From contig NZ_JAAAML010000005.1 of assembly GCF_024105735.1 (NCBI RefSeq), positions 62,001 through 126,000 of the forward strand: 64,000 bases of DNA, in the 5' to 3' direction. The notes below the pieces were generated by a model. That model had not been told where the DNA came from. It did not search any database and saw nothing but the letters and a program-made list of their open reading frames with translations. The stretch is from Parahoeflea alexandrii (GTDB lineage Bacteria > Pseudomonadota > Alphaproteobacteria > Rhizobiales > Rhizobiaceae). Within the stretch, counting starts at the first letter, position 1. Each line of letters starts with the position of its first letter. The position numbers and the translations under genes are program-made. Positions 21,373-64,000 of this stretch are shown piece by piece.

Positions 21373-21408
21373 AGATGGCGGGAAACCTTGATTTTCCGCC
21401 ATCTGCTT
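21373..21408. terminator. intercistronic hairpin
   Basis: GCAGATGGCGG and its complement at the right flank form a 15-bp stem with one mismatch around a short loop, between the CusF-like gene and the oxidase gene. On the minus strand no U-tract follows, so within the operon it more likely modulates expression or stabilises mRNA than terminates. On the plus strand it is followed by TTTT. Confidence 0.4.
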
Positions 21409-21416
21409 TTCGGATG

Positions 21417-21701: not shown

Positions 21702-21740
21702 TCGATTTACCTTTGTTTGTATCTGAAACGATAGATTTGA

Positions 21741-22226: not shown

Positions 22227-22265
22227 AGATGTTGTTCCTTTCGTGAACACTTCGGGTCGAAGGGG

Positions 22266-23633: not shown

Positions 23634-23654
23634 GGTCTTTTCCTTTCCGGAAAG

Positions 23655-25169
23655 TTAGTGGCCGCCGCCACCGGCATCGCCAACGGATGGGGCTGCAGCT
23701 GAGCTGCCTGCTCCGGTTCCGCCGCCATAGATCGCCGCTGACAGATTGACATCAGCCAGCCAGAATTCACGCTTGGCGTTGATCGCCAACATCAGGGTTC
23801 CGATCTTGGCGCGAGTGTCGGCGAGAAGTTCGAAAGTATTGGAAATCATGCCGTTGTAGGTCAGCAGCGATTCCGCCTCGATCGTGGTGCGCAACGGGAC
23901 CACGGCATTGAGGTAGTGCCGCGCGATTTCGTGCGTCGAACTGTACGCGGTATGGGCCGACCGCGCCTCGGAGCGGATGGTGACGGCTTTCTCCGCGAGC
24001 AGATTGGCCGCTTGCATGTAAGCAAGCTCAGCCTTGCGCAGCCGCGCCTTGCCGCTGTCGAAAATCGGGATCACGAACTCCAGTTCGAGCTGCGGCGTGA
24101 CAACCGTTTTCCGGGTCTTGGTCTCTTCCAGATTGCCGCCGGCAATCTCGTATTCCGTCTCGATCTCACGTTCGGCTTCAAAGCCGGAAATGATCTCCAG
24201 ATCCGTGACAAAACGTGTGGCTTCAGTGAGGCCATAGCTCTTGGCAACAGCTTCCAGTTCCAGTTTTGCGACGCGAAGATCGACCCGGTTCTCAAGCGCT
24301 TCCTGCTCGATCCGGTTTTTATTGATGAGTCCGCGAGGCAGCCGCGGAAGCTTGTCGGGGACGTAGTAGTCGACCTCGCTGCCCCACAGCCCCATGATCC
24401 TTGTGAGCTCTTCCTTGGCCAACCGCGACGCCAGTCGTGCTTCAGCCATCTGCCCGGCCAGTTCGGCATAAAAGGCATGTTCTCTTGCTTGGCCGCCCTT
24501 TGGAAGCGCACCGCTTTCGCCAAGTTTCTGAGCAAGCTCGGACGCCGCATCGGCTGCAACCTTGGCCTGATTGAGGTACGCGACTGTTTCGAACGCCGAA
24601 ACGGCATTGACCCAGGCCCGGCGTGTGTCATTTGCAACCTTGAGGGTTGCATCAACCGCCCGCATCTGGGCCTGCCGGAAGCGCGTATCTGCGATATCGA
24701 CGCGTGCCCGTCGCGTGGCGAGCGACAGGATGTTGGCTGCGATCATGCCTTCGATGGCACGATAGGCTCCGAGCTCCGGGGCGCCGATACCGAGCAGGCC
24801 GATCGAAACCCTCGGGTTTTCCGGCAGACTTTGCTGCCAGGCCTCTGCTGCGGTCATGCCGATACCGGCATAAGCTGCCTGCAGGCCCTTGTTGTTGAGA
24901 AGCGCAACCTGAACAGCGGTGTCGGCATTGATGGTGTTCTTGTGCACCAGGCCATGGACGCGTTCAGAAACCGCCTTAGCCTGATGCTTGTTTTGAAGCC
25001 AGACTGCTTCCTTGCCCTTGGTGCCGATGGAGACAGAAGCTGCGACAGGGCCAAAACCGGCTTCCCTGGCGGAATATCCGGCGAGTTCCTGGTCGCTGAC
25101 GCAGCCCGCGAGAAACAGGGTCGCGGAAGACACGACAGCGATGGAGGCAGACCTGCGGAACACGCTCAT
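23655..25169 (-). CDS. TolC-family outer-membrane lipoprotein
   Basis: This encodes a 504-residue outer-membrane efflux protein. A lipobox (FLAGC) near residue 22 predicts lipid anchoring. The mature part has the internally repeated alpha-helical layout of TolC, with helices such as AEAWQQSLPENPRVS and RKAELAYMQAANLLAEKAV in the two halves. The last 25 residues are Gly/Ala-rich with a final GGGGH. No membrane-fusion or RND pump gene is present nearby, so it may work with a pump encoded elsewhere or act as a copper-binding outer-membrane protein. It overlaps the preceding gene by ATGA. Confidence 0.85.
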   Translation of the reverse strand: MSVFRRSASIAVVSSATLFLAGCVSDQELAGYSAREAGFGPVAASVSIGTKGKEAVWLQNKHQAKAVSERVHGLVHKNTINADTAVQVALLNNKGLQAAYAGIGMTAAEAWQQSLPENPRVSIGLLGIGAPELGAYRAIEGMIAANILSLATRRARVDIADTRFRQAQMRAVDATLKVANDTRRAWVNAVSAFETVAYLNQAKVAADAASELAQKLGESGALPKGGQAREHAFYAELAGQMAEARLASRLAKEELTRIMGLWGSEVDYYVPDKLPRLPRGLINKNRIEQEALENRVDLRVAKLELEAVAKSYGLTEATRFVTDLEIISGFEAEREIETEYEIAGGNLEETKTRKTVVTPQLELEFVIPIFDSGKARLRKAELAYMQAANLLAEKAVTIRSEARSAHTAYSSTHEIARHYLNAVVPLRTTIEAESLLTYNGMISNTFELLADTRAKIGTLMLAINAKREFWLADVNLSAAIYGGGTGAGSSAAAPSVGDAGGGGH

Positions 25170-25399
25170 GAGCCGTCTCCCCCGCCGGGAGCCTGGCTGT
25201 CATTCTGCTGCCGCCAGGGTTTTGGCTCCACGGCCACACGGTGCGTGTAGCCCTCAAGAACCGTGTGATGGTGCGTGCTGCGAATGCCGATCGCCGGGTC
25301 GGCGGGCGAATTGTCCGGCATGATATCGGCAGGCCTGCCCGCAGCCGTGCAAGCGGCGAGCGCCAGCGGCATTGCAGCCGCAAAGAGAGTACGAAACAT
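25166..25399 (-). CDS. small lipoprotein
   Basis: This encodes a 77-residue precursor with a lipobox LAAC at residues 13-16, giving a mature lipoprotein of about 62 residues. A His cluster (STHHHTVLEGYTHR) may bind metal. It is the first gene of the oxidase operon, and its stop overlaps the start of the TolC-like gene in an ATGA. Similar short lipoproteins precede TolC-like genes in other copper clusters. Function is unknown. Confidence 0.7.
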   Translation of the reverse strand: MFRTLFAAAMPLALAACTAAGRPADIMPDNSPADPAIGIRSTHHHTVLEGYTHRVAVEPKPWRQQNDSQAPGGGDGS

Positions 25400-25476
25400 G
25401 ATTGTCCTACTGCGATAGAAGTGCGGTTGGCCGATTGAAACCGGCCACGGTGCCCGATAACAGGCGCAGCTACACT

Positions 25477-25878
25477 TCAGGCGCGCGGAGGACGTTCCGG
25501 CAACGCCATAAGCACGACCACGAATTCAGGTGCGGCTTCGTTTTCGAAACTCTGGGGAGCTAAGCGATCCACAGCCGCAACGTCATTGGCACAAAGGGCC
25601 ACGAAACAGGTCGCGGGGCAGCAACGGTCTAGGATCGAGTCTGGGCCTGCTGGAACAGATTCTGACGCGAACCCGGCTGACGCGTCTTGGGACTGATGGA
25701 CGGCAGCCATTCGCTGATCGCCGGACATGTTCCCCATCATCGTGTGATGCCCGCCGACGGCCTGAGCCTTAATCATAGCCGCCGCATTCAAGGAACTCGG
25801 CACGATGCTTGCAAAAACAAACATCAAAACCAGAAGCATGCGCCCGTGACAAAACCTATGACGAATCAGTTTGCTCAT
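25477..25878 (-). CDS. small secreted metal-ligand-rich protein (CopL-like)
   Basis: This encodes a 133-residue protein with a hydrophobic signal (MLLVLMFVFASIVPSSLNAAA) after a basic start. It then has GGHHTMMGNMSGDQRM and a Cys box DRCCPATCFVALC. The combination of a signal peptide, a His/Met stretch and a double-Cys motif recalls CopL-type periplasmic copper proteins, although overall similarity cannot be judged. The start at MSKLIRH has a GAAG site. It stands apart from the oxidase operon by a 77-base gap. Confidence 0.5.
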   Translation of the reverse strand: MSKLIRHRFCHGRMLLVLMFVFASIVPSSLNAAAMIKAQAVGGHHTMMGNMSGDQRMAAVHQSQDASAGFASESVPAGPDSILDRCCPATCFVALCANDVAAVDRLAPQSFENEAAPEFVVVLMALPERPPRA

Positions 25879-25978
25879 CTTCGAACTATTTATCCAAAAT
25901 TGGCGCAGAACAATGGCCCGTGTCATCACAAGCCTGTGAAAGTATACTTGCGTGTCGGATGGCCGCATTCGGACCACG

Positions 25979-26392
25979 TCAGTTTATCCCGTTGGCGCGT
26001 TGAAGTTCGCGGACATAGACGATGATTGTGTCGAGTTCGAGGTCGGTAATCTCGTCGACCGCCGGCATGTCACCAAACTGCCAATGATGAGCGCGGACGC
26101 CATTTTTCGCGGCCAGAAGAAACGAGACGTCGCCATGATGACCGGGTTCATAGATCTTGTGAACCAATGGGGGTGCAATACCGTCCTGACCTGCGGCGTT
26201 CTTGCCATGACAGGAAGCGCAGGACCGGTTGAACAGCGTCTCGCCTTCTTGCGCCTGCGCCGACAATTGCGGAATCACCACATTCGCCATCGCTGCGCCC
26301 GTCGCGTGACGCTCAGGCGGCTGAAAGCTGCGGTAGATCAGAAAGACGCCGACAAGCAGGATGATGCCTATCAAGAGAGCTCGCCGATTCAT
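25979..26392 (-). CDS. membrane-anchored c-type cytochrome
   Basis: This encodes a 137-residue protein with an N-terminal anchor (about 5-22) and a single haem c site CASCH at 58-62. The axial Met is probably in the FGDMPAV motif. It belongs to the class I cytochromes found in copper clusters, possibly the electron acceptor of the multicopper oxidases or a donor to the respiratory chain. Its start overlaps the stop of the CueR gene (ATGA), so it is co-transcribed with the regulator and copper-controlled. Confidence 0.85.
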   Translation of the reverse strand: MNRRALLIGIILLVGVFLIYRSFQPPERHATGAAMANVVIPQLSAQAQEGETLFNRSCASCHGKNAAGQDGIAPPLVHKIYEPGHHGDVSFLLAAKNGVRAHHWQFGDMPAVDEITDLELDTIIVYVRELQRANGIN

Positions 26393-26784
26393 CCGAACGC
26401 GCCCTTGGCGATCTCGTCAATAATCGGGCAGTCGGGCCGGTCATCGCCGTGACAGTGGTCCGCCAGGATCTCGAGCGTGTTGCGCAACGACTTCAGCTCC
26501 TTCAGCTTGCGATCAATCTCAGAGATTCTTTCCAGCGCCAGTTCCTTCACATCCGAGCTGGCGCGGTCTTTGTTCTCATAGAGCGAGAGCAGCGAACGGC
26601 ATTCCTCGATGGTAAAGCCAAGGCTTCTTGAGCGTTGAATAAGCGCCAGCCGGCGGACATCCTTGCCATCATAATCGCGGTACCCGTTGGTCGCACGCGC
26701 CGGCTTGATGAGGCTGATATCCTCATAATAGCGGATCGTCTTGGCTGGAAGGCCGGTCGCATCTGATGCCTGGCCGATATTCAT
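26389..26784 (-). CDS. cueR: CueR, copper-responsive MerR-family regulator
   Basis: This encodes a 131-residue regulator. The N-terminal winged helix (MNIGQASDATGLPAKTIRYYE) is typical of the family. A dimerisation helix follows, and the metal loop is HCHGDDRPDC with C111 and C119 spaced as in CueR for linear Cu(I) binding. CueR senses cytoplasmic Cu(I) and twists 19-bp-spacer promoters into an active form. It reads from its own CueR-type promoter, overlapping the end of the copA gene, and is followed by the cytochrome c gene. Confidence 0.93.
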   Translation of the reverse strand: MNIGQASDATGLPAKTIRYYEDISLIKPARATNGYRDYDGKDVRRLALIQRSRSLGFTIEECRSLLSLYENKDRASSDVKELALERISEIDRKLKELKSLRNTLEILADHCHGDDRPDCPIIDEIAKGAFG

Positions 26785-26862
26785 CGTTAATCTCCTTGCT
26801 TGGGACCCTCTCGCCTAAGCCTGCTTGCCAGATTCAGGGATCGGATCTGCGACTTGCCTGAA

Positions 26863-26893
26863 ATCATAAAGCTTCCACCCGCTGGAAGGTCAA
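26863..26893 (-). promoter_or_regulatory. CueR promoter of the cueR operon
   Basis: On the minus strand TTGACC (26893-26888) and TATGAT (26868-26863) have a 19-bp spacer containing TTCCAGCGGGTGGAAGCTT, a good CueR dyad. The TGA of the -35 element is also the stop codon of copA, so the two transcription units are fused base for base. Confidence 0.85.
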
Positions 26894-29292
26894 GCGTCAA
26901 GCTTGACCGATCTGAGACGCAGCGCGTTGGAGATGACAGACACCGAAGACAGGCTCATGGCCGCTGCCGCAATCATCGGCGACAGCAAGGTTCCGGTGAC
27001 CGGGTAGAGCAGCCCTGCGGCAATTGGCACGCCGACGCTGTTGTAAGCGAAGGCGAAGAACAGGTTCTGCTTGATGTTGCGCAATGTGGCTTCGGACAAC
27101 CTGCGCGCTCTCAGGATACCGCCCAGATCACCCTTTAGCAGGGTGACGCCGGCACTCTCGACAGCCACATCGGCCCCCGTGCCCATGGCAATACCAACTT
27201 CAGCCGCTGCCAGTGCAGGTGCATCATTGACGCCGTCACCGGCCATCGCAACCTTGTGGCCAGCCTTGTGCAACTCATCCACCAGTGCCTTCTTGTCTTC
27301 AGGCAGAACTCCGGCACGCACTTCGTCGATGCCCAGCTGATCGGCCACCGCGCGGGCTGTGGTCTCGTTGTCGCCCGTCGCCATGATAATCTTGAGACCA
27401 GCCTTATGCAGCGCCCTGATGGCATCCCGTGTGCTGGCCTTGATCGGATCGGCAACAGCGATGAGCCCCGCGAGCTTGCCATCGACAGCGACATACATCG
27501 CTGTCTTTCCATCCGAGCGAAGCGCATGGGCCTGTTCATCGGCAGAGGCGCAGTCGACACCGGCAAATTCCATCATTGCCGCATTTCCTAGCGCAAGTTT
27601 GCTGCCACCTGACCGTCCAGACACACCTTTTCCGGTGACGGCCTCGAAGTCTGATACCGGTTTAGCCTCGATCCCGCGGGCGGCAATGCCTTCGACAATA
27701 GCCTCCGCCAGCGGGTGTTCCGATCCTGATTCAAGACCCCGGACAAGCGCCAGCATGTCGGCTTCCGAAATTTCCCCGAAGGTTGCGACATCGGTCAGGG
27801 CCGGCTTGCCTTCGGTCAGGGTCCCGGTCTTGTCGACGATCAGCACATCAACCTTTGCCATGCGTTCGAGCGACTCAGCGTCCTTGATGAGAACCCCTGC
27901 CTGAGCGCCACGTCCGGTGGCCGTCATGATCGACATCGGCGTGGCCAATCCCAGCGCACAGGGGCAAGCGATGATCAGCACTGAAACAGCCGAGACAATG
28001 GCAAACACGAATGCCGGATCGGGACCGACCAGCAGCCAGATCACGAAGGCCAGGACAGCAACGATCACCACCGCGGGCACGAAATAGGAGGCAACACGGT
28101 CAGCGAGCCCCTGGATGGGAGCGCGGGACCTCTGTGCGGACGATACCATCGCAACGATCCGCGCCAGCATGGTTTCATCACCGACCTTCTCGGCTTGAAT
28201 GATCAGCGATCCGTTCTTGTTCAGAGTGCCGCCGGTGACAGGGTCGCCTTGAGTTTTCTCCACGGCAAGCGGCTCGCCGGTGAGCATGCTTTCATCAACG
28301 GAACTGCGGCCATCGATGACAACGGAATCCACCGGGATGGCTTCGCCGGGACGAACGCGCAGCCGGTCTCCGCCAACAATGTTTTCGAGCGGCGCGTCAT
28401 ACTCCTCGCCATCCGGCAGGATGCGGCGGGCCGTCTTGGGCGCGAGATCAAGCAGCGCGCGAATGGCGTCGCCTGTACGTTCGCGGGCTCTGAGTTCCAG
28501 CACTTGGCCGACAAAGACCAGCGCGACGATCACCACTGCCGCCTCGAAATAAACCGGCGTGTGGCCACCGGCCATTTGCAGCCCCTCCGGGAAAAGGTGC
28601 GGAAGAAATGTGGCGATGGTCGAATAGAGGTAGGCCGCGCCGACGCCGATCATGATCAGCGTCCACATGTTGAGGTTCCATGTCCTGATCGATGTCCAGC
28701 CGCGATGAAAGAATGGCCGCGCAGCCCAGACAATTACAGGCGTTGCCAATGCGAACTCTAGATAGAGCGTAAAGATTTCGCCAAGCCACTGACGAACGGG
28801 GAGCCCAAGCATCGGCGCCATTGTCAGAATCAATAGTGGAATTGCAGCACCGGCGCTGACCCAGAGCCGGCGGGTGAAATCCACCAGCTCATGGTTCGGG
28901 CCGTCGGACAGCCCATCCATAGGCTCCAGCGCCATGCCACAGATCGGGCAGGTTCCTGGGCCTTCCTGCACGATCTCGGGATCCATCGGGCAGGTGTACA
29001 GAGCGTTTTTCGCTGCCGGCTTCTTCTTCCGGGCCTTGTTGCCGGAGAGATAGAACCAGGGATCGCGCTCGAACTTGTCGTGGCAACCGGTCGAGCAAAA
29101 ATGAAACATGTCGCCCTTGTAGTCGAGCGTCGGCTTGCCCTTGTCAAGTGCGATATCCATGCCGCAGACGGGGTCCTTGACCTTGCCATCGCATGGTACG
29201 GTGGCCGCCTCAAACAGCGCTTCGGCGTCAACCGCCGGCTCCTCGCCGTGGTCTTCCGGATGCGAGTGCTTGCAGTTTTTATGATGGTCCAT
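26890..29292 (-). CDS. copA: CopA-type copper-exporting P1B-ATPase
   Basis: This encodes an 800-residue Cu(I)-transporting ATPase that exports copper to the periplasm. The N-terminus has a His-rich start, a YHS domain (DPVCGM at 40-45) and a CPMDPEI...[10 protein letters not shown] heavy-metal domain (about 101-124) instead of an HMA domain, as in SilP/CopF types. Cu-binding CPC is at 443-445, the phosphorylated D487 lies in DKTGTLT, and SEHPLAEAI and GDGVNDAPA are intact. Its CueR promoter lies 28 bases upstream. The start is the second of two in-frame ATGs. It is expected to be the main copper pump of the window. Confidence 0.93.
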
Positions 29293-29319
29293 GATGCCAA
29301 TCCTTCCTGACTTCAAATG

Positions 29320-54246: not shown

Positions 54247-56490
54247 ATGACGAAAATGGATTCAGATAACGAAATCACTTGCGACTGGACAGTGTCTGGC
54301 ATGGACTGCGGATCCTGTGCGACGAAGATCAAGGATGCAGTGGCGCGGCTGCCAGGGGTGACCGGGGTTGAGGTCGGCATCATGTCCGAACGCCTGCGCC
54401 TGACGTTGGACGAAGGCAAGACAGGCCGCGACAAGATCGAGAAGACCGTTCGTGCGCTTGGATACGGCATTGCGTCGCGCGTAGCAGAGCAGGAACCGGC
54501 CGAAGCGCATGACCAAGATCAAAACGGCACCGGTCGCTCACAGGCAGTCAGCAAAGCAACGGACAATTCCGGCCACGGTAGCCCCGGCCACGTTCATGAC
54601 GATCCTGCGGATCGGGGCAAACGCTGGTATCAGACTGCCAAGGGTAAACTGGTGATCTTTACCGCCCTGCTTCTGGTTGTCGCCTGGGGTGTGGAATTGA
54701 TCGTACCAGAGGTCGGCAATTGGGCATTTGTCGCTGCCTGCCTGATCGGAGTTGCCCCCGTCGCACGTAGAGCGTTTGCAGCTTTGCGGATGGGACAGCC
54801 CTTCACCATTGAAAGCCTGATGACGATAGCTGCCATCGGCGCATTGTTCATTGATGCGGCAGAAGAAGCAGCTCTGGTTGTATTTCTCTTCGCTGTGGGT
54901 GAAGTTCTGGAAGGTGTTGCCGCGGGCAAGGCGCGCGACGGTATTCGCGCTCTTGCCAATCTCGTTCCGAAGACAGCGCTTCTGGAGATGAACGGCGCCA
55001 CGCGCGAAGTGCCGGCGACAAGTCTTGCCGTAGGGCAAACCGTGCTCGTCCGTCCCGGTGATCGCATTCCGGCGGATGGTGAGATTAGGGAAGGCACCTC
55101 GGGTGTTGATGACAGCCCGGTGACGGGCGAGAGTGTTCCGGTGAACAAGGGGCCTGGTGATTCTGTCTTTGCGGGCTCCATCAACACCGAAGCCGCGCTG
55201 CGGATCACGGTGACTAAAACCGCCGAAGACAACACCATTTCGCGCATTATTCGCCTCGTTGAAGAGGCTGAAGAGGCACGCGCGCCGACCGAACGATTCA
55301 TAGATCGCTTTAGTCGCTGGTATATGCCCGCTATCGTCACTGTTGCGGTTCTGGTCGTGCTGGTGCCGCCCCTGGCCTTTGGCCAGCCTTGGGACACATG
55401 GGTTTACCGCGGGCTGGCGCTGCTGCTGATCGGCTGCCCCTGTGCACTGGTGATCTCGGTTCCCGCCTCAATCGCTTCGGCGCTGTCGACGGGCGCACGG
55501 CGCGGCATTCTGATGAAAGGCGGTGCTGTGATCGAGGCGGCGGCGAAGGTATCTCGCGTTGCCTTTGACAAAACCGGGACACTTACTCATGGGCGACCTG
55601 TGGTAACGGATATCGTAACTTTTGGCACAACCACCGAGGCCGAACTTCTGGCTGTCGCAGCGGGCGTCGAAAGCGGCTCAAGCCATCCGTTGGCTGTCGC
55701 TATTCTGAACAAGGCCGAGGAGGAAGGCCTAACAATCCTGCCCTCACGCGATGCAAAGGCACTGATGGGTAAGGGTGTGATTGCCACGGTGGGTGATGCC
55801 TCTGCCTGGGTGACTTCACCCGGATATGCCAAGGACAATGCCGGGATTGACGATGCGGGCCTGGCCCAGACGACGGTGTTCGAGGAACAGGGCAAGACCG
55901 CCGTTGTGGTGTTCCGCGAAAAAACCTCGCTTGGCATCATCGCCATGCGTGACGAACCACGCGCGGATGCGCCCGAAGCGGTGCGCCAGTTGAAAGCAAT
56001 GGGCATTACGCCGCTCATCCTGACCGGGGACAACCCGCGCACGGCCGCGGCGATCGCGGCAAGCCTGGGCATGGAGTACCAGGCCAACATGATGCCCGAG
56101 GACAAGCTAAGGGCAATTCGCGAGATGAGCGATCATGGCGGCGTGATGATGATCGGCGACGGCATCAACGACGCACCGGCGCTCAAGCAGGCAAGCGTTG
56201 GCGTTGCCATGGGTTCGGGAACCGATGTCGCGCTCGAAACGGCCGACACTGCCATCCTGCGCGACCGGGTGACCGACATTCCGGCCACCATCCGCCTCAC
56301 CCGTGCGGCGATGGCCAATATCCGACAGAACGTCACCATTGCCCTCGGTTTGAAAGCGGTCTTCCTCGTAACTTCTGTTTTGGGGCTGACCGGCCTCTGG
56401 ATCGCGATCATGGCCGACACGGGAGCGACGGTGCTCGTCACGTTGAACGCACTGCGACTGCTGCGCTTCAATCCAGAACGAGAGGGCTAA
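54247..56490 (+). CDS. ZntA/PbrA-type heavy-metal P1B-ATPase
   Basis: This encodes a 747-residue efflux ATPase for divalent soft metals. An N-terminal HMA domain carries GMDCGSC (18-24). A His-rich linker (HGSPGHVHDD) follows, with eight membrane helices. Metal-site CPC is at 397-399, phosphorylated D441 lies in DKTGTLTHG, and SSHPLAVAI, GDGINDAPA and the IMADTGATVLVTLNALRLL end are present. The DTGAT in the last helix is characteristic of the Zn/Cd/Pb subgroup. It is the first gene of a six-gene operon under the 19-bp-spacer promoter. Confidence 0.93.
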   Translation: MTKMDSDNEITCDWTVSGMDCGSCATKIKDAVARLPGVTGVEVGIMSERLRLTLDEGKTGRDKIEKTVRALGYGIASRVAEQEPAEAHDQDQNGTGRSQAVSKATDNSGHGSPGHVHDDPADRGKRWYQTAKGKLVIFTALLLVVAWGVELIVPEVGNWAFVAACLIGVAPVARRAFAALRMGQPFTIESLMTIAAIGALFIDAAEEAALVVFLFAVGEVLEGVAAGKARDGIRALANLVPKTALLEMNGATREVPATSLAVGQTVLVRPGDRIPADGEIREGTSGVDDSPVTGESVPVNKGPGDSVFAGSINTEAALRITVTKTAEDNTISRIIRLVEEAEEARAPTERFIDRFSRWYMPAIVTVAVLVVLVPPLAFGQPWDTWVYRGLALLLIGCPCALVISVPASIASALSTGARRGILMKGGAVIEAAAKVSRVAFDKTGTLTHGRPVVTDIVTFGTTTEAELLAVAAGVESGSSHPLAVAILNKAEEEGLTILPSRDAKALMGKGVIATVGDASAWVTSPGYAKDNAGIDDAGLAQTTVFEEQGKTAVVVFREKTSLGIIAMRDEPRADAPEAVRQLKAMGITPLILTGDNPRTAAAIAASLGMEYQANMMPEDKLRAIREMSDHGGVMMIGDGINDAPALKQASVGVAMGSGTDVALETADTAILRDRVTDIPATIRLTRAAMANIRQNVTIALGLKAVFLVTSVLGLTGLWIAIMADTGATVLVTLNALRLLRFNPEREG

Positions 56491-56493
56491 CCC

Positions 56494-57087
56494 ATGTTGC
56501 GATTGCCGCTTTACATGGACTGGGTCCCCGTGTTGGCGGGGGCCTATTTGCTCGCACGATCATGCCGCGCCCTCCTTGATCGGTCCAATTGCTACTGGCC
56601 GCCCGAAAGTCGCGATGGCGCGACCTATGCTGCTTTCATCTGGCCCTTTCGGGTACTGGTGGGAGGCCTGATTGTTGTGTCGCTTCTGGCCATCCCCGAG
56701 GTGGCTCCAGGGATAGCCTCCTCACGCTTCTGGGTCGGAGGTATCTTGTTGATCCTCGGCTTCGGAATCGCATTATTGGCAACGCTTCAATTGGGCTGGA
56801 GCGTGGCCTTTGGTGAGGACGGGCCCCTCAAGGAACGCGGCTGGTTCCGGTTCAGCCGCAATCCGATCTACCTCTCAACTTGGGCAGGTCTTGCGGGGTG
56901 GGCAATCCTGACCCCGAAACCCGAAATCTTGACAGCGCTGGCCCTCTGGGCAGCTGTATATCTGTGCGCGATCTTCCTGGAGGAAAGGGCATTGGCGCGT
57001 TCGTTTGGCACCAAATTTGCTGCATACAAGGTCCGAACCGCTCGCTTCCTGGGCTGGACTCGCGCGGAAGAAACACATGGAGCATGA
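56494..57087 (+). CDS. isoprenylcysteine methyltransferase-like membrane protein
   Basis: This encodes a 197-residue membrane protein with five or so helices. The C-terminal GWFRFSRNPIYLSTWAGLAG and EERALARSFGTKFAAYKVRTARFL blocks are the cofactor site of ICMT/phospholipid-methyltransferase family proteins. In bacteria the substrates are mostly unknown. It begins 3 bases after the ATPase stop. Proteins of this family appear beside zinc, cadmium and lead resistance genes. Confidence 0.82.
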   Translation: MLRLPLYMDWVPVLAGAYLLARSCRALLDRSNCYWPPESRDGATYAAFIWPFRVLVGGLIVVSLLAIPEVAPGIASSRFWVGGILLILGFGIALLATLQLGWSVAFGEDGPLKERGWFRFSRNPIYLSTWAGLAGWAILTPKPEILTALALWAAVYLCAIFLEERALARSFGTKFAAYKVRTARFLGWTRAEETHGA

Positions 57088-57088
57088 C

Positions 57089-57712
57089 ATGATCAACTGG
57101 TATGGCTGGGCGGCACTGGCCTTTCTACTGGCCTATCTCGCGCTATTCTACTGGGGCACCTTCCGCGCCGCCAATGCCGCCGGTCGGACGGTCTGGCTGA
57201 TCGGACAGGAAGGTGGCCATGATCGCCTGGCCGCTCTGGGTTACCGTGCCGCTTTCTCCATGGCTCTCTTCGGGCCGCTCATCTGGATGAACCTCCCCCT
57301 GGTGCAAAGGCTAGACCCGCTATGGACGGAAGGTAGTTTTCCTCTGCTCGGCACTCTGGGGCTCATTTCCGCGGGCACCGGCGCCCTGATTGCAATGGTG
57401 GCACAGCTGACAATGGGTGCCTCTTGGCGTGTGGGTGTCAAAGAAGGTGCAACCGGAGACCTCGTGTCGGGTGGTATCTTCAAGTTCAGCCGCAACCCGA
57501 CCTTTGTCGGACAATTCCTGCTGCTAGTCGGTGTTGCCTTGGCTATCCCATCACTGCCAACGGCTGTGGCACCGCTGCTTTTTATCCGGTTGGCATCTTC
57601 ACAGGTTCGATCCGAAGAAACCGCACTACGCGCGGCGATCGGGACCGAATACGAGGTCTATATGGCGTCCGTGCCGCGATGGATCGGACTATCCCGAAAA
57701 AAAGCTTCATGA
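57089..57712 (+). CDS. second ICMT-like membrane protein
   Basis: This encodes a 207-residue membrane protein with the same family core (GGIFKFSRNPTFVGQFLLLVG and TEYEVYMASVPRWIG). The N-terminal half is different from that of its neighbour, so the tandem is not a recent duplication. The start chosen is the ATG with GGAG six bases upstream, directly after the preceding stop. It overlaps the next gene by ATGA. Confidence 0.8.
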   Translation: MINWYGWAALAFLLAYLALFYWGTFRAANAAGRTVWLIGQEGGHDRLAALGYRAAFSMALFGPLIWMNLPLVQRLDPLWTEGSFPLLGTLGLISAGTGALIAMVAQLTMGASWRVGVKEGATGDLVSGGIFKFSRNPTFVGQFLLLVGVALAIPSLPTAVAPLLFIRLASSQVRSEETALRAAIGTEYEVYMASVPRWIGLSRKKAS

Positions 57713-58194
57713 AAGTTCCCCTGATGCTGTTTGTGATCGTTTCCGCTTTGGTTGTCGACCAACTGACCAAGGCCTTTGCGCTGTCTTTACTTTTGGCAGG
57801 CATGCCACTCTCTGTTCTGCCCGGCTTCAATCTCACGCTTGGCTTTAACGAAGGGGCAAGCTTCGGGATGTGGTCGGGCGTCATGGCTGGAAAGCCCTTG
57901 GTCATGGTCGGGATAACTGGCCTGTTGACGCTGGGTTTGGCCGTCATCGCGTTTCGCTCGCAGGCCCCACTGGAGCGCGCGGGGTGTGCACTGATCGTGG
58001 GCGGCGCGCTCGGCAATATTTTTGACAGGGTGCGGCAAGGCGCTGTGACCGACTTTCTCGATTTCTATTGGCGAGACTGGCATTGGCCGACGTTCAATTT
58101 TGCAGACATCTCAATTTTTCTAGGCGCCCTATTCATTCTAGTGGCGGCACTGTCGTCACCACGTCGAAAGAATTCTGACATTGACCAGAACTGA
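57709..58194 (+). CDS. lspA: lipoprotein signal peptidase LspA
   Basis: This encodes a 161-residue signal peptidase II with four helices. The catalytic aspartates are D106 (GNIFDRV) and D133 (FNFADISI), and FNEGASFGMW is the third conserved block. Plasmid lspA copies in lead and cadmium operons (as in pbr loci) are thought to mature lipoproteins needed for resistance. The start overlaps the previous stop (ATGA), and its 3' end overlaps the DsbB-like gene by 14 bases. Confidence 0.93.
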   Translation: MKVPLMLFVIVSALVVDQLTKAFALSLLLAGMPLSVLPGFNLTLGFNEGASFGMWSGVMAGKPLVMVGITGLLTLGLAVIAFRSQAPLERAGCALIVGGALGNIFDRVRQGAVTDFLDFYWRDWHWPTFNFADISIFLGALFILVAALSSPRRKNSDIDQN

Positions 58195-58618
58195 CCAACA
58201 AAACCTGTCCCGCGATGACCTTCTGGTGTTGGTCGCATTTCTGATCGCTCTGGCGGCAACTCTTGGCGCTCTCTTTATTGGCGAAATCCTCGGGCAAATG
58301 CCGTGCACTCTATGCTGGTATCAACGCATTGCAATGTTTCCCTTGGTGCCCATTCTCGGCCTGTCGACTTGGCGCGGCGACGGCATGGCCCGCCTTTATG
58401 GCTCACCGCTAGCGCTGGCAGGCCTGGCACTGGCAGGCTGGCATTCTGGGCTCTACGCTGGTTGGATTCCGCAGGTGATTGCTCCATGCACCAAGGATGG
58501 TCCATCCTGCTCCGGTCCATCCCAGAGCATCCTTGGTCTTCCCATTCCCTACCTATCGCTGATCGCCTTTGTCGCGATCCTGGCATGTCTTGTTCTATTG
58601 AAAGGAAAACGCAAATGA
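58181..58618 (+). CDS. DsbB-like disulfide bond protein
   Basis: This encodes a 145-residue membrane protein with four helices that reoxidises DsbA. The first periplasmic loop has PCTLCWYQR (C42 and C45), and the second has PCTKDGPSC (C103 and C110). It resembles BdbC/DsbB types. No ATG is available; a TTG at 58181 is the only reasonable start, since all four Cys lie downstream. It is directly coupled to the DsbA-like gene (ATGA). Confidence 0.85.
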   Translation: MTRTDQQNLSRDDLLVLVAFLIALAATLGALFIGEILGQMPCTLCWYQRIAMFPLVPILGLSTWRGDGMARLYGSPLALAGLALAGWHSGLYAGWIPQVIAPCTKDGPSCSGPSQSILGLPIPYLSLIAFVAILACLVLLKGKRK

Positions 58619-59265
58619 ACCGACGTACTCTCATGATTGGAGCGTCCACTTTCGGCCTCGCAGTTTTTGGCGGCGGCGTCTTTTTCTTGACTGGCCGTAG
58701 CCAACAGGTGGACCCTGACGCGGTTGTGGCGGTCGATCCGTTGCTGCTGGTTCGCAGCTATTCACCGAGTTTCGGCCCTGAACAGGCTCCGGTAACGCTT
58801 GTCGAATTCTTCGATCCGTCCTGCGAAGCCTGCAGGGCTTTTCATCCGGTGGTTCAAAAAATACGCACCGAGTTTCCTACGCAAGTGCGGATCGTCATAC
58901 GCTATACCGTGTTCCATGAAGGCTCGGACGAGGCGGTACGTATCCTTGAGACAGCAAGGATGCAGGACAAGTTTGAGCCCGTGCTCGATGCGATTCTTGA
59001 ACAGCAGCCTCGTTGGGCGTTGCACGATGGGCCGCGGCTGGACATAGCCTGGCAGATCTCAGAGACCGCCGGGCTCGACCTTGAAAAGGCCAAAAGCGAC
59101 AGGCTGTTTCCAGGAATTACGGGTGTCCTCAATCAGGATATGGCGGATGTCAACGCTCTTGGAATCCGCCAAACTCCAACCTTTTTCCTGAACGGGCGTC
59201 AAATGTCAGAAATCAGCTTTGACGGTCTCATCGCTGATGTGCGCAGCGCCGTCGAGAACTCCTGA
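58615..59265 (+). CDS. DsbA-like thiol oxidase partner
   Basis: This encodes a 216-residue secreted protein with a membrane anchor (about 8-26) and DsbA domain. The active site is FDPSCEACRAF, with C70 and C73, and the cis-Pro loop is IRQTPTFFLNGR. With the adjacent DsbB it forms a self-contained disulfide-forming pair in the metal operon, perhaps replacing thiols damaged by soft metals. It ends the operon, 8 bases before the convergent mntR gene. Confidence 0.88.
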   Translation: MNRRTLMIGASTFGLAVFGGGVFFLTGRSQQVDPDAVVAVDPLLLVRSYSPSFGPEQAPVTLVEFFDPSCEACRAFHPVVQKIRTEFPTQVRIVIRYTVFHEGSDEAVRILETARMQDKFEPVLDAILEQQPRWALHDGPRLDIAWQISETAGLDLEKAKSDRLFPGITGVLNQDMADVNALGIRQTPTFFLNGRQMSEISFDGLIADVRSAVENS

Positions 59266-59273
59266 AAGACCTC

Positions 59274-59741
59274 TCAAGGTCGGTCGGCATAGGACTTGAA
59301 CAGGGCAAGTGTCCGCTCGCTGACATGGTGCTCGATTCCCTCAGCGTCGAGTTCCGCCGTCTCGGCGTCAAGCCCGAGACGAATCAGGAACCTCAGGACG
59401 ATCTCGTGCCGATTTCGGCATTCCTTGGCAAGCGCACGACCTTCGTCCGTCAGAAAAACCGAGCGATACTTCGCGCGAGTGATCAGTCCCTCCCGGGCAA
59501 GCCGGGCAAGCGCCTTCGTCACGGTCGGTGCCCGCACGCCCAACTGTGCAGCAATATCGACCGGCCGGGCCTCACCATGTTCGTGAATCAGATCCGCGAT
59601 CAACTCAACATAGTCTTCAGCCAGCTCGTTGCGCCGCGCCTCCCGTACTCCCTGGAAAGCCTCGGCTCTGGCATCTGCAGGGCGCTCATCTGTCACCGAG
59701 GGGAGTTCAGCGGAGAAATCACTTTTGATCATAGCGGCCAT
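59274..59741 (-). CDS. mntR: MntR, manganese-dependent repressor
   Basis: This encodes a 155-residue DtxR-family regulator of the proteobacterial MntR type. AFQGVREARRNELAEDYVELI is a family start, followed by the HTH (RPVDIAAQLGVRAPTVTKALARL) and dimerisation region RHEIVLRFLIRLG...EGIEHHVSERTL. MntR represses Mn import when Mn is plentiful and acts on a palindromic box. The ATG used is the first true ATG. A GTG four codons earlier is possible. It diverges from a multicopper oxidase gene with an MntR-type box between them. Confidence 0.9.
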   Translation of the reverse strand: MAAMIKSDFSAELPSVTDERPADARAEAFQGVREARRNELAEDYVELIADLIHEHGEARPVDIAAQLGVRAPTVTKALARLAREGLITRAKYRSVFLTDEGRALAKECRNRHEIVLRFLIRLGLDAETAELDAEGIEHHVSERTLALFKSYADRP

Positions 59742-59780
59742 GTTGCACAGCACGGCTTGACAAGTAAAGGCATTGCGTAG

Positions 59781-59802
59781 AAAGTTAGCCTCTACTAACT
59801 TT
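59781..59802. promoter_or_regulatory. MntR box between mntR and the oxidase gene
   Basis: AAAGTTAG-N6-CTAACTTT is a perfect 22-bp inverted repeat 39 bases upstream of mntR and 48 bases upstream of the oxidase gene, so it could control both. The same arms recur with small changes at 62375-62396 before mntH. That repetition within one window is the evidence that MntR binds it. Confidence 0.8.
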
Positions 59803-59850
59803 TTGTGTAGAGACTTTGCTCGCCAATCCCCCTGAGGAACACCTTATCCC

Positions 59851-61059
59851 ATGCCCACCAATCTACGCAGCCACAAGCGCGATGCGCGGTCAGCTTTGGA
59901 AGTCTCACGGCCTATCTCAGCGCCTGACGACACCGCATTGTCTGTTGACCCGCAGCGTCGAGCCTTGCTGGTCGGAGGTATTGCCGCTGCGAGCGGCGCC
60001 GCCATGATGGCGAGTGGCGCAAGGTCGCAGACAAAACCTGATCCGACGACGGATCACGACATGTCCACCGTGATGGACGATCCCTATGCCGCGCCAATGC
60101 CTGGAATGGCTCACGGTAACATGACAACGATTGGCTTGGTTGACCACGCCAGGAACGGCTTCGATCCAACAACCATGCTTACGGACTGGGAGACGGGGCG
60201 GACCGAACAGTTGCCGGATGGTCGGACACTGCGCATCTTCGAAGTCGATGCTATCGACAAGGAAATCGAAATTGCACCCGGCGTCTTCTTCCCCGCATGG
60301 ACCTTTAATGGCCGCGTTCCCGGTCCGGCTTTGAGGGCAAAGGAAGGAGAGCGGCTGCAGATCATTTTCCGCAACTTCGGTTCGCACCCCCATTCCATGC
60401 ACTTCCACGGCATCCATTCGGCACGAATGGACGGCGTTCCCGGGGCTGGATTGATTGGTCCCGGCGAGGAATTCATCTACGAATTCGACGCCAAACCCTT
60501 CGGTTGCCACCTCTATCATTGCCACGCGCTACCGCTGAAGCGGCATATGCACAAGGGCATGTATGGCCTGTTCGTCATTGATCCGGACCCCGCCCTGCAA
60601 CTCGAACATGCGGCAGCGGCTGCCTCCCGCGTGCTCGGCAGTCCGGAGAATGCTGAATGGCAGGAGATGGCGATGGTGATGAACGCTTTTGACACCAACT
60701 TCGATGGTGGGAACGAGGTCTATGCCTGTAACACTGTAGGTCAAGCATATATGAACGTGCCGATCCGCATCGACAAGTCGCGTCCGATCCGCATCTACCT
60801 GTTGAACGTGACCGAGTTTGACCCAATCAACTCCTTCCATCTACACGCCAACTTTTTTAACTATTATGATACCGGCACCACACTGACGCCAACACAGCGC
60901 ACTGTGGATCTGATTATGCAGTGCCAGGCGCAGCGCGGAATCCTTGAGTTCAGTTTTGCTGAACACGAGCCCGGAATGTACATGTTTCACGCACACCAGT
61001 CCGAGTTCACCGAGCTCGGCTGGATCGGCATGTTTGACGTGCAGGAGTCCACCGCATGA
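59851..61059 (+). CDS. two-domain multicopper oxidase
   Basis: This encodes a 402-residue periplasmic oxidase with an RRALLVGGI signal preceded by a 36-residue polar head. Copper residues are MHFHG (H184, H186), the type 1 LYHCH (C224) and later FHLHANFF and MFHAHQSEF. It has only two cupredoxin domains, with the type 1 site in the first, unlike the three-domain oxidases of the copper cluster. Under the MntR box and beside a ZIP transporter, its likely substrate is Mn(II) or Fe(II) rather than Cu(I), by inference. It overlaps the ZIP gene by ATGA. Confidence 0.85.
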   Translation: MPTNLRSHKRDARSALEVSRPISAPDDTALSVDPQRRALLVGGIAAASGAAMMASGARSQTKPDPTTDHDMSTVMDDPYAAPMPGMAHGNMTTIGLVDHARNGFDPTTMLTDWETGRTEQLPDGRTLRIFEVDAIDKEIEIAPGVFFPAWTFNGRVPGPALRAKEGERLQIIFRNFGSHPHSMHFHGIHSARMDGVPGAGLIGPGEEFIYEFDAKPFGCHLYHCHALPLKRHMHKGMYGLFVIDPDPALQLEHAAAAASRVLGSPENAEWQEMAMVMNAFDTNFDGGNEVYACNTVGQAYMNVPIRIDKSRPIRIYLLNVTEFDPINSFHLHANFFNYYDTGTTLTPTQRTVDLIMQCQAQRGILEFSFAEHEPGMYMFHAHQSEFTELGWIGMFDVQESTA

Positions 61060-62243
61060 GCGAGAACAGCCAACCCAAACTGGCCAATTCCGCCCTCACC
61101 CGGCTCGTGCTCGTGCTGTTGCCGCTGGCCACCATGCTTGTCGCCTTCGTCTGGATCGCCTCGCTCGACCCCTTGCGCAGTTTCAATAATGGCGCGCCGC
61201 CGGTTGAGGCCCTAACCGTGGAACGAACCATTCTCGACAAGACAGGGATCGGACTGCAAGTGCGCGCCGGAGGGTCGGACCCCATGGTCATCGCTCAAGT
61301 GGCGGTGGACGACGCATTCTGGTCCTTCACGCAGGACCCTGTCGGACCGATCACGCGAGGAGAGGCCGTCCGGGTGCAGATTCCCTATCCCTGGGTGCTT
61401 GGCGAGGCACATGTGGTCAAACTCCTATCCAACACCGGCACGGCGTTCGAACATGAAATCGCTGTCGCCGTGTCAACGCCAAAGGCAACGAAGTCCCAAT
61501 TGCAGGCGCAGGCACTGGTCGGGGCAATCGTCGGTTTGCTCCCGGTGGCGCTCGGTTTGATGTTCTATCCGGCCATGCGTGGCGTCGGTCGGGCCGGGAT
61601 GAACTTTTTGCTCGCGCTGACTGTGGGCCTGCTGGCGTTCCTCCTCATCGACATGACCGCCGAGGCACTGGAGTTGGCCTCCGAGGCAGCCGCATTGTTT
61701 CAAGGGTCCGCAATGGTCTGGCTGGCGGGCCTGGCGAGCTTTCTGCTGTTAATGGCGATCGGCCGCTGGCGTGGCCAACCCGAAGGTCTGGCGCTCGCAT
61801 ATTTCATCGCCCTTGGCATCGGGCTGCACAATTTCGGTGAGGGTCTGGCGATCGGCGGCGCCTTTGCAGCCGGATCGGCAGGGCTTGGTACCTTCCTCGT
61901 TCTAGGCTTTGCGCTGCATAATGTGACCGAGGGAATCGGCATCGCCGCACCCATGCTGCGGATCCGTCCTCCACTCTGGACATTTGTGGCGCTGACACTA
62001 CTGGCCGGCGGTCCTGCCGTACTGGGTATGTGGGCGGGCAGTCTCGCCTATGCGCCACAATGGTCGGCATTAGTTCTGGCTGTAGGCGCGGGCGCAATCA
62101 TGCAGGTCATGGTTGAGGTCGGCGCCTACCTGATGCGCCAGAATCCTGACCGCCAGGCCGTGTTGCTCTCGCCGGCTGTTCTGGGAGGTTTTCTTGGCGG
62201 GATCGCATTCATGTATGCCACTGCGGCGCTGATTAAGGTCTGA
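61056..62243 (+). CDS. ZIP metal transporter with periplasmic domain
   Basis: This encodes a 395-residue transporter. The ZIP metal sites are GLHNFGEGLAIG (H258, E262) and ALHNVTEGIGI (H288, E292), with eight helices from about residue 150. Unusually, residues 40-145 form an additional beta-rich periplasmic domain before the transporter. ZIP proteins import Zn, Fe or Mn. Co-transcription with the two-domain oxidase suggests that the pair oxidises and handles one metal together. Codon overlap with the oxidase stop supports this. Confidence 0.85.
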   Translation: MSENSQPKLANSALTRLVLVLLPLATMLVAFVWIASLDPLRSFNNGAPPVEALTVERTILDKTGIGLQVRAGGSDPMVIAQVAVDDAFWSFTQDPVGPITRGEAVRVQIPYPWVLGEAHVVKLLSNTGTAFEHEIAVAVSTPKATKSQLQAQALVGAIVGLLPVALGLMFYPAMRGVGRAGMNFLLALTVGLLAFLLIDMTAEALELASEAAALFQGSAMVWLAGLASFLLLMAIGRWRGQPEGLALAYFIALGIGLHNFGEGLAIGGAFAAGSAGLGTFLVLGFALHNVTEGIGIAAPMLRIRPPLWTFVALTLLAGGPAVLGMWAGSLAYAPQWSALVLAVGAGAIMQVMVEVGAYLMRQNPDRQAVLLSPAVLGGFLGGIAFMYATAALIKV

Positions 62244-62374
62244 CCCAACCGGCCCGGCCGAATCGTTCGGCAATAGTTTGCGCTACCGAATTGCCTCCGT
62301 GGGAACTTTCCCGCATGGCAGCAGTTCGGGCGCATGTTGGTCAGCGCGGCCTGTCAAGAAAGGCCGCACCATGA

Positions 62375-62396
62375 AAAGTTAGCGAAAGCTAATTAT
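62375..62396 (+). promoter_or_regulatory. MntR box before mntH
   Basis: AAAGTTAG-N6-CTAATTAT repeats the left arm and most of the right arm of the box at 59781, with the same 6-base centre. It lies 45 bases before the ATG of mntH. Similar position and spacing strongly suggest common MntR control. Confidence 0.75.
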
Positions 62397-62441
62397 ACAT
62401 CTGTAGCCTCTCATAAGGTTTTTGATAGAAATCCGAATACC

Positions 62442-63090
62442 ATGACCCGATCAGCCTGGCGCCAGGAGCGCGAAGCGCCCTCCATGTCGGAGCTGTTTAG
62501 AACCATCGCCGTGGGCAATGGAGGCACCAGCCGATTCCGCCGCTTTCTGGCCTTTGTCGGCCCCGGTTATCTAGTAGCTGTGGGCTACATGGACCCGGGT
62601 AACTGGGCAACATCGCTCGCGGGGGGCGCAGCGTTCGGCTACACGCTGCTGTTCGTGGCGCTTTTGTCCAACATCATGGCGATCCTGCTGCAGTCGCTGT
62701 GCGCGCGGCGGGCGGTCGCCTCGGGCTGATCCTGAATGGGGCGCGGTGATCGCCGGCTTTGCACCAAGCCGCGAGATTGTCAGCAATCCCACGATGCTCT
62801 ATCTCGCGTTGGGGATCATCGGGGCGACCGTGATGCCACATAATCTTTATCTGCATTCCGGCATCGTGCAGACCCGCGCCTACGGACTTGATTTCGCCGC
62901 CAAACGCGAAGCACTGCGACATGCGACTGGGATTCGACCATCGCGCTAATGTTCGCTCTAACAATCAACGCCTCGATCTTGATCCTTGCAGCAGCGGCTT
63001 TCTACACTGTGGGCAAAAATGACCTGGCTGAAATCGACAAGGCGTATCTGCTCTTAGAGCCATTATTGGGGTCGGCGCTGGCGCCGATCC
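62442..63090 (+). pseudogene. mntH: mntH, disrupted Mn2+/H+ symporter
   Basis: The N-terminus with [20 protein letters not shown] (TM1 DPGN motif) is in frame to a TGA at 62727-62729. About 85 codons are then missing. The frame resumes as [14 protein letters not shown] with [15 protein letters not shown] (TM6 MPH motif). A one-base loss near 62930 shifts into [18 protein letters not shown]. The rest is cut off by an IS3-type element at 63091. The Nramp gene is therefore triply broken. It is preceded by an intact MntR box. Confidence 0.9.
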
Positions 63091-63149
63091 TGAATAGCCC
63101 CTAGATTTCTGGACACCTTCTTCCCTAATTTTGAGGCAAGGAGGCCATG

Positions 63150-63416
63150 ATGGGCAAAGTCAATTTCAGTGATGATTTCAAGCGGGATGCGGTCGCTCAG
63201 ATAACCGAGCGGGGTTACGCTGTTGCGGAGGTCTCGAAGCGTCTGGGCGTGAGCCCGCATTCGCTCTACGCGTGGACGAAGAAGTTCTCACGGCCGGCTG
63301 GCGGTGACGACAAGGATGCCGAGATCAGACGGTTGAAGCGCGAACTGACCAGGGTCACCGAGGAGCGCGACATCTTAAAAAAAGCCACCGCGTATTTCGC
63401 CAAGGATGCAAAGTGA
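63150..63416 (+). CDS. IS3-family OrfA
   Basis: This encodes an 88-residue protein with a helix-turn-helix (FKRDAVAQITERGYAVAEVSK and LGVSPHSLYAWTKKF), followed by a leucine-zipper-like RRLKRELTRVTEERDIL helix. OrfA binds the transposon ends. A GGAGG site precedes the ATG. The end overlaps OrfB and contains a run of seven A at 63377-63383 for -1 frameshifting. Confidence 0.9.
   Translation: MGKVNFSDDFKRDAVAQITERGYAVAEVSKRLGVSPHSLYAWTKKFSRPAGGDDKDAEIRRLKRELTRVTEERDILKKATAYFAKDAK
63377..63383 (+). other. slippery A7 site for OrfA-OrfB frameshift
   Basis: Seven consecutive A followed by G (ATC TTA AAA AAA GCC in OrfA frame) is the usual slippery heptamer in IS3-group elements. The -1 frame from this site is open into OrfB (RVFRQGCKVRYAF), so a transframe OrfAB transposase can be made. 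Confidence 0.8.
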
Positions 63417-64000
63417 GATACGCGTTCGTGGCAGAACATCGCCCGCTATTTTCGGTGCGGGCGATGTGCCGCTGCCTCCGCATCCAACCGAGCGGCTTTT
63501 ATGCCTGGCTGAAGAACCCGTTGAGCAAACGGGCTCGCGAAGACGCGCGCCAGACCGAGCTCATACACAATGCATGGAAGGACAGCGGCAAGGTTTATGG
63601 CTATCGCAAGCTTCACGACGATCTGCTGGATCAGGGCGAGACGTGCTGTCCAAATCGCGTTGCACGTCTGGCCACACTGGCGGGCATCAAGGCCCAGATC
63701 GGCTACAAGCGTCGGCCAGGAAGCCATGGCGGCAGGCCGTCATTGGTCGTCGACAACACGCTGGATCGGCAGTTCGACGTGGAAGCGCCAGACACGGTGT
63801 GGGTGACGGACATAACCTACATCAGAACGCTGGAAGGCTTCGCCTATCTGGCGGTCGTGATCGACCTATACTCTCGTCGTGTCGTCGGTTGGTCGATACA
63901 GAGCCGTCAGACGACGGACGTGGTCCTGCAGGCTCTGCTCATGGCCGTGTGGCGTAGAAAGCCGAAGAACAGGGTGGTGATCCACTCGGATCAGGGTTCC
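63413..64000 (+). CDS. IS3-family OrfB, partial
   Basis: The -1 frame relative to OrfA encodes an rve-type integrase, with 196 residues present before the window edge. It has an HTH-like YGYRKLHDDLLDQGE box and two of the three acidic residues: VWVTDITYIRT and HSDQGS. The catalytic Glu is beyond the window. GTG at 63413 is a possible internal start, but production by frameshifting is more likely. Confidence 0.88.
   Translation, partial: MRYAFVAEHRPLFSVRAMCRCLRIQPSGFYAWLKNPLSKRAREDARQTELIHNAWKDSGKVYGYRKLHDDLLDQGETCCPNRVARLATLAGIKAQIGYKRRPGSHGGRPSLVVDNTLDRQFDVEAPDTVWVTDITYIRTLEGFAYLAVVIDLYSRRVVGWSIQSRQTTDVVLQALLMAVWRRKPKNRVVIHSDQGS

Follow-up and report, generated by a model that had tools for sequence, protein, structure and literature searches.

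Sequence comparison points to MntR control of a two-domain multicopper oxidase and a ZIP transporter in Parahoeflea alexandrii

Introduction

This report concerns the manganese regulator gene mntR of Parahoeflea alexandrii (Rhizobiaceae) and the neighboring operon, which encodes a two-domain multicopper oxidase and a ZIP-family transporter. Both lie in a stretch of 64,000 nucleotides (NCBI RefSeq assembly GCF_024105735.1, contig NZ_JAAAML010000005.1, positions 62,001 to 126,000), referred to here as the window. Comparison across genomes supports well the view that the operon probably belongs to the MntR regulon, because the box before the oxidase gene tracks MntR from genome to genome even when mntR is located elsewhere. 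The locus resembles the Escherichia coli MntR regulon in the family of its regulator, in the 22-bp layout of the operator and its TAGC-N4-RCTA core (12 of 16 arm bases are equal), and in a similar box before mntH, though the mntH of the window has decayed. In E. coli the box has the sequence AAACATAGCAAAGGCTATGTTT, and MG1655 carries it in exactly this form before mntH. The two regulons differ in their targets, which in the window are a two-domain oxidase and a ZIP protein; we know of no oxidase in the E. coli MntR regulon. A literature search limited to open-licence papers brought up no account of MntR governing a multicopper oxidase together with a ZIP protein, and an earlier prediction may exist.

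Among systems that join an oxidase to a transporter, yeast Fet3-Ftr1 combines a multicopper oxidase with a membrane importer, as the locus may do, but the yeast permease is of a family unrelated to ZIP. In ammonia-oxidizing archaea a two-domain oxidase, MCO1, adjoins a ZIP permease (Kerou 2016, via PMC7785015 and PMC7819960); a copper role is proposed there, MntR is not mentioned in the accessible parts of these two reports, and the likeness considered here is one of gene arrangement. The ZIP protein of the window shares its fold with BbZIP (5tsa, 8czj), and ZupT is its sole NCBIfam match, at a score far below the cut-off (36.7 against 252 bits); it differs from both in an extra transmembrane helix and β-sandwich of about 145 residues. 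The oxidase is of the same family as 7rab, a dodecameric protein from M. hydrothermalis (68% identity over 300 alignment columns), and 3gdc (48% over 307 columns), which we take to come from Arthrobacter FB24; in the Arthrobacter FB24 locus (L020) the oxidase adjoins a ZIP protein. These two relatives are described as structures only: no physiological role for either was found in the open-licence literature, where 3gdc serves as a comparison in the accessible part of one paper (PMC8556283).

The locus and its dyads

The locus comprises the following elements:

59274..59753, minus strand: mntR, manganese regulator of the DtxR/MntR family, 159 residues from a GTG start (alternative ATG starts at 59741 and 59732)
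59757..59762, plus strand: TTGACA, judged from sequence as the probable -35 element for the oxidase and ZIP genes, 18 nt upstream of dyad 1
59781..59802, no strand: dyad 1, a perfect AAAGTTAG-N6-CTAACTTT in the mntR-oxidase gap, overlapping the expected -10 element; probable MntR operator
59851..61059, plus strand: two-domain multicopper oxidase with a twin-arginine translocation (Tat)-type signal; PF07732 and PF07731, T1 copper site in domain 1
61056..62243, plus strand: ZIP-family transporter with an extra N-terminal transmembrane helix and β-sandwich domain (structure model); PF02535, HNxGEG and HNxTEG motifs
62375..62396, no strand: dyad 2, which precedes the mntH remnant; an imperfect copy of dyad 1, differing at 2 of the 16 arm positions

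The mntR and oxidase genes are divergent, and the gap between them contains dyad 1, AAAGTTAGCCTCTACTAACTTT, a perfect 22-bp dyad with an 8-N6-8 layout, exactly as the original prediction for this DNA had proposed. The predicted overlap of the oxidase and ZIP genes by ATGA is likewise present, at 61056-61059. Dyad 2, AAAGTTAGCGAAAGCTAATTAT, was said to repeat the same arms at the same spacing 45 bases before mntH; the 8-N6-8 spacing and the left arm are indeed identical to those of dyad 1, but the right arm has two mismatches and 46 bases separate the dyad from the mntH ATG (62443). With up to three mismatches allowed, the window contains two matches to the dyad against 0.07 expected, and none of 100 shuffled sequences yielded two. 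The same search of the whole genome (4,909,397 bases) returned both dyads and one site with three mismatches, a total that is no excess by itself since about five are expected at the window rate and the backwards pattern gave 15 per strand. The unusual point is that mntR and mntH have beside them sites with zero and two mismatches, respectively, at a distance of 2.6 kb from each other, and the weight of the dyad evidence rests on the exact match, its position and its conservation rather than on the genome-wide count. The presumed targets are preceded by a box of the MntR type, a 22-bp dyad with the TAGC-N4-RCTA core. Outside the window, a TTGGTTAGCC-N4-GTAACTTT site (G000:C1:1037192-1037213) is nearly unchanged in the same-genus genomes G093 and G186 and may be coding sequence.

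The mntR product scores 201.7 bits against the curated MntR model NF008273 (cut-off 153), and its gene is the sole place in the genome above that cut-off. In alignment with 2h09 and 1on1 it retains all six positions, D, E, H, E, E and H, that we take to be the manganese ligands of MntR. All 19 Rhodobacterales-type loci compared, and likewise the window, have TTGACA or TTGACT before the box, at a distance of 18 nt in 18 loci and 19 nt in one. Because of this spacing, MntR on the box would cover the -10 element and block transcription. The TTGACA element lacks conservation in most other box-bearing loci, the exception outside the Rhodobacterales-type set being L099.

Association of the box with MntR across genomes

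Genome contigs were scanned with an alignment of the oxidase, and the best 80 of at least 574 relatives, which are the nearest ones, were retained (L083 duplicates the record of L017). A box was scored as the core TAGC-N4-GCTA, with no more than one mismatch, in the 300 bp before the codons of the Tat twin arginine. Seven loci (L050, L061, L072, L082, L090, L097 and L098) were dropped for want of an anchor, leaving 73, and the 47 genomes without a local mntR were searched for MntR elsewhere, which 17 of them have. The dyad whose presence in orthologous loci the original prediction proposed to check precedes the oxidase gene in 33 of 33 loci with a local mntR, in 12 of 15 with MntR elsewhere in the genome, and in 1 of 25 where no MntR was found; this comparison supports the predicted placement of the oxidase and ZIP genes under the manganese regulator. 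The latter two groups differ with a Fisher p of 9.5e-7, a value computed on loci that are related. A reversed-core control scored 9/33, 2/15 and 6/25, and exact matches numbered 34/73 for the true core and 0/73 for the reversed one. With a simpler Tat twin-arginine anchor the counts among 78 loci were 33/33, 12/14 and 1/22, plus 0/9 in genomes not then searched for MntR; this anchor misplaced L070, which was re-anchored for the count of 73.

The genomes in which no MntR was found tend to carry a different element. A Fur-type box precedes the oxidase gene in 21 of 25 such loci versus 2 of 15 with MntR elsewhere (p 2.8e-5), or 14/25 versus 2/15 at a stricter cut (p 0.0095); the corresponding count for loci with a local MntR, 18/33, is inflated in that the MntR box partly matches the Fur-type pattern. 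The distinction is also found among Mesorhizobium-type loci, where those with MntR (L048, L051, L053, L058, L071, L073, L074 and L075) have an MntR-type box and those without (L055, L062, L065 and L068) a Fur-type box. Several loci of MntR-less genomes (L017, L043, L052, L062, L079, L080 and L081) have a gene of the Fur family near the pair, with 52-60% identity to the one in L017.

An mntH gene above the cut-off was present in 15 of 29 genomes searched (16 genes). The exact core occurs upstream of one of these, in L105, and nine Mesorhizobium-type mntH genes share an upstream ATAGC-N6-YATAATG. A Fur-type box at 0-1 mismatches precedes six mntH genes (L110 and L116-L120); for MntR-less genomes the number of mntH genes with such a box is five, from four genomes. 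At a loose cut of 3 mismatches a Fur-type match also precedes 8 of the 9 Mesorhizobium-type genes, and the mntH classes therefore rest on 0-1 mismatches. Judged by eye, with L098 and L072 taken from other box counts because they had been dropped from the 73, the box before the oxidase and that before mntH belong to the same class in 14 of 15 genomes, the one not so assignable being the Agrobacterium genome of L076. A tree built from the window and 77 loci has 11 changes in MntR presence and 9 in the box, as called with the simpler anchor.

The oxidase and the ZIP protein

The oxidase has a Tat-type signal with the arginine pair at residues 36-37, followed by the layout of a type C two-domain oxidase, with the T1 Cys and His in domain 1, eight trinuclear His, and a domain-2 HAH motif without Cys. 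The copper-site residues are intact: H181, C224 and H232, which we take to be T1 ligands, and H184, H186, H223, H225, H330, H332, H380 and H382, presumably those of the trinuclear site, are invariant among 42 aligned oxidase sequences. At the axial T1 position, 30 of these sequences carry Met and 12 carry Leu; an axial Met favors a moderate T1 potential, poor for Mn(II). The structure model of the oxidase is poor (predicted local distance difference test score, pLDDT, 68.5) and served only to name relatives in the PDB. The protein does not pass the copper nitrite reductase model TIGR02376 (79.6 against 296.3 bits). It also falls far below the CopA/PcoA model TIGR01480 (86.3 against 478.95 bits), so that a CopA copper-oxidase label is unsupported; the earlier suggestion that the usual assignment as a copper oxidase is wrong nevertheless has weaker support than the regulon assignment, as the protein may still have cuprous oxidase activity. 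The Mn(II) or Fe(II) oxidase activity suggested along with it is conjectural.

The ZIP protein passes PF02535 (36.9 bits against a cut-off of 35.1). Its binuclear-site motifs are present, with H258, N259, E262, H288, N289 and E292 invariant among 56 sequences. The structure model (pLDDT 88) comprises one transmembrane helix, a β-sandwich (residues 53-138) and a BbZIP-like core. Its best structure matches are to BbZIP (E 2.3e-6), and the β-sandwich domain gave only weak and mixed matches in the PDB.

Pairing, spread and origin

A ZIP gene follows the oxidase gene in 79 of the 80 loci, and in the remaining one the contig ends first; conserved adjacency of this kind behind the box is what the original prediction named as support. 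The same 4-base overlap is found in 65 of 77 scored pairs; in L045 the ZIP gene is split over two frames. Among 157 matching plasmid records, 18 loci were chosen for spread, and all 18, from alphaproteobacteria to haloarchaea, carry the pair. A regulator of the DtxR/MntR family adjoins or lies near the pair in 11 of the 18 plasmids: four of alphaproteobacteria, one of Deinococcus (one gene off), four of actinobacteria and two of haloarchaea. The other seven have one Fur gene, an adjacent ArsR gene and P-type ATPase gene in two cases, these genes farther downstream in one, and none in the stretch shown in three. Three of the plasmid regulators were scanned, and the best match was to a Thermus-type MntR model, below its cut-off. 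Rhodococcus pseudokoreensis (L124, 2315) and Halomarina (L125, 2297) show a one-base overlap between the gene for the DtxR-type regulator and that for the oxidase, an arrangement that reads, in two domains of life, as an operon of regulator, oxidase and ZIP genes. Directly after the ZIP gene, a Gloeocapsa plasmid (L121, 4756-5181) and a Rhodococcus plasmid (L023, 6309-6728) have a gene for a Rieske (2Fe-2S) protein.

Within the best 80 relatives, the oxidase of the window groups mostly with Rhodobacterales sequences, the nearest being L024 (88%). When 151 genomes from the host family were searched for the Rhodobacterales-type box with up to two mismatches, 22 genomes matched, against 37 for the backwards control, which is chance level. 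The sole perfect match among the 150 other genomes of the family is in G182, with mntR, oxidase and ZIP genes beside it. Martelella plasmid records share 82-86% identity with parts of the window. From the Rhodobacterales kinship of the oxidase, the single perfect box in the host family and the Martelella matches, we infer that the module is probably an import that carries its own regulator.

The mntH remnant and neighboring genes

Downstream of dyad 2 the window ends in two further elements:

62443..63094, plus strand: mntH (Nramp) remnant with an internal gap and frame breaks, cut by the insertion sequence; further remnants lie past the window end
63095 (approximate)..64000, plus strand: IS3-family insertion sequence with terminal inverted repeats, continuing past the window end to about C10:126303

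No intact Nramp reading frame is present for mntH. The pieces match model positions 3-93, 192-254 and 259-310, with about 94-191 missing and the frames broken, and further pieces are found past the window at C10:126306-126630; together they are the only matches to the mntH model in the genome. The insertion sequence, which entered at about 63095, has open reading frames at 63147-63416 and 63413-64000 with rve and HTH_21 domains. The notion of mntH as a working co-regulated gene thus fails in this strain, and mco-zip is the intact operon left behind a dyad of this kind. Elsewhere in the host genome, an ATP-binding cassette system at C9:402281 has an ATPase that passes a manganese/iron model (427.9 bits, cut-off 393) and a binding protein that matches manganese and zinc models below their cut-offs; the start of the binding-protein gene has two Fur-type boxes around it.

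Next to mntR, the region 54247-59265 encodes a P-type ATPase of the Zn/Cd/Pb type and, after it, proteins that resemble membrane methyltransferases, signal peptidase II and DsbB/DsbA (some of these names were given by eye). In the neighborhood of the oxidase-ZIP pair, the DsbA family recurs in 21 of 89 loci and the DsbB and LspA families in 14 each. The contig also has a separate cluster of copper type (18355-29316), which encodes two more multicopper oxidases and a P-type ATPase that bears YHS and heavy-metal-binding domains. On the minus strand at 9153-14258 is an open frame of 1701 residues with no Pfam match at E 1e-8, which could encode an unknown large protein or be open by chance.

Discussion

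We consider it probable that the locus is a horizontally moved, self-contained manganese-starvation module, repressed by MntR, in which a Tat-exported oxidase would work with a ZIP importer. With enough Mn(II), MntR would bind the 22-bp dyad over the -10 element of the mco-zip promoter and keep transcription off; when manganese falls, MntR would release the dyad and mco-zip would be turned on. The two-domain oxidase would be exported by Tat, folded and loaded with copper, and the ZIP protein from the same message would import divalent metal. We infer repression, manganese as the signal, and import as the direction, and an acquisition role is argued from the presumed derepression under manganese starvation. 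The comparison suggests that the pair may serve manganese gathering rather than copper resistance. As to the job of the oxidase, we propose tentatively that it might act as an oxidative filter, which would oxidize the competitors Fe(II) or Cu(I) on the outer side of the membrane, beside the importer, so that the ZIP protein would then meet mainly Mn(II). Fe(II) and Cu(I) are far easier to oxidize than Mn(II), and removal of these ions is favored because they are much easier substrates and because oxidation of Mn(II) is no obvious help to a manganese-starved cell.

Several observations weigh against this manganese-starvation module. L056, L086 and L087 have MntR without a box, and L070 (with L082 under the simpler anchor) has a box where no MntR was found. 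The Bradyrhizobium locus L091 is positive only via a weak site, its oxidase and mntH boxes looking Fur-type, and a Fur-type box could answer to iron. The nine Mesorhizobium-type mntH genes have their variant in place of a clean TAGC-N4-GCTA core (four have one mismatch, five are worse). Conservation of the -35 element has its weight lowered by the fact that the whole gap is generally common to related loci. The tree contains only five well-supported independent pairs, typically four for, none against and one tied (p 0.125), and the tree-corrected test is consistent with the association of box and MntR, not significant. Two plasmid loci have an ArsR gene and a P-type ATPase gene adjoining the pair instead of a DtxR/MntR-family regulator, and copper-related neighbors occur in part of the loci.

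These neighbors, of the SCO family in 18 and the PCuAC family in 10 of 89 loci, together with CopC/D in L016 and a Met/His-rich N-terminal stretch, fit copper acquisition or sequestration, in which the oxidase would make Cu(II) from Cu(I) for import by the ZIP protein and the MntR link would be local rewiring. In N. viennensis, MCO1 and the adjacent ZIP gene are up under copper limitation (log2 0.81 and 1.33; accessible part of PMC7785015), and the accessible part of a second report describes one ZIP protein adjoining MCO1 in one Nitrosocaldaceae genome as serving copper sequestration (PMC7819960). We regard this as quite unlikely here: boxes track the presence of MntR, MntR-less genomes have a Fur-type box before the oxidase and mntH alike, the regulators near the pair in Deinococcus, actinobacteria and haloarchaea are of the DtxR/MntR family, and the window has its separate copper-type cluster with other oxidases. 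Import coupled to oxidation in the manner of Fet3-Ftr1, with the oxidase making trivalent iron or manganese and the ZIP protein taking the ion from its partner, would suit the near-constant pairing and overlap and the extra β-sandwich domain on the ZIP protein. It is nevertheless unlikely in our view, as the ZIP metal-site motifs are those of divalent-metal ZIPs, Met is the prevalent axial residue and favors a potential poor for Mn(II), and the manganese-oxidizing multicopper oxidases known to us are of other types. Wild-type P. putida GB-1 contains 59 times more intracellular manganese than a double mutant in its manganese-oxidizing multicopper oxidases, according to the accessible part of the report (PMC3798386), and Mn(II) oxidation stays a live option for this reason.

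Detoxification of manganese or heavy metals, in which MntR would activate the operon at high manganese and the oxidase and ZIP protein would remove metal, has a parallel in the activation of manganese exporters by MntR elsewhere (accessible parts of PMC3136493 and PMC11275975), and the module does stand among a Zn/Cd ATPase gene and other metal genes. The overlap of the box with the expected -10 element in Rhodobacterales-type loci suits a repressor, and MntR-less genomes have one class of box before the oxidase and before the importer gene mntH; we therefore hold detoxification to be improbable. That dyad 1 serves mntR itself, with the oxidase a bystander of a metal-resistance island, could be argued from this locus, where mntR diverges from the same gap and autoregulation alone could explain the dyad. 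It is very improbable given that 12 of the 15 genomes with a distant mntR still have a box before the oxidase, and that L092 and L100, which have their mntR downstream of the ZIP gene, nonetheless show the box before the oxidase.

The manganese-starvation module could be one case of a pan-prokaryotic manganese machine, in which a two-domain oxidase and a β-sandwich ZIP protein would form one complex, induced by manganese starvation under the manganese or iron sensor of the host (MntR, Fur-type or DtxR-type). Plasmids would have carried it through bacteria and haloarchaea. This wider proposal is speculative and we rate it as doubtful; if true, it would move a whole family now labeled copper oxidase or laccase into manganese nutrition. 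The correlation of box and MntR offers a concrete and cheap test of such a move for the widespread two-domain oxidase family, and manganese starvation may be the physiological setting in which the oxidase-transporter pair acts.

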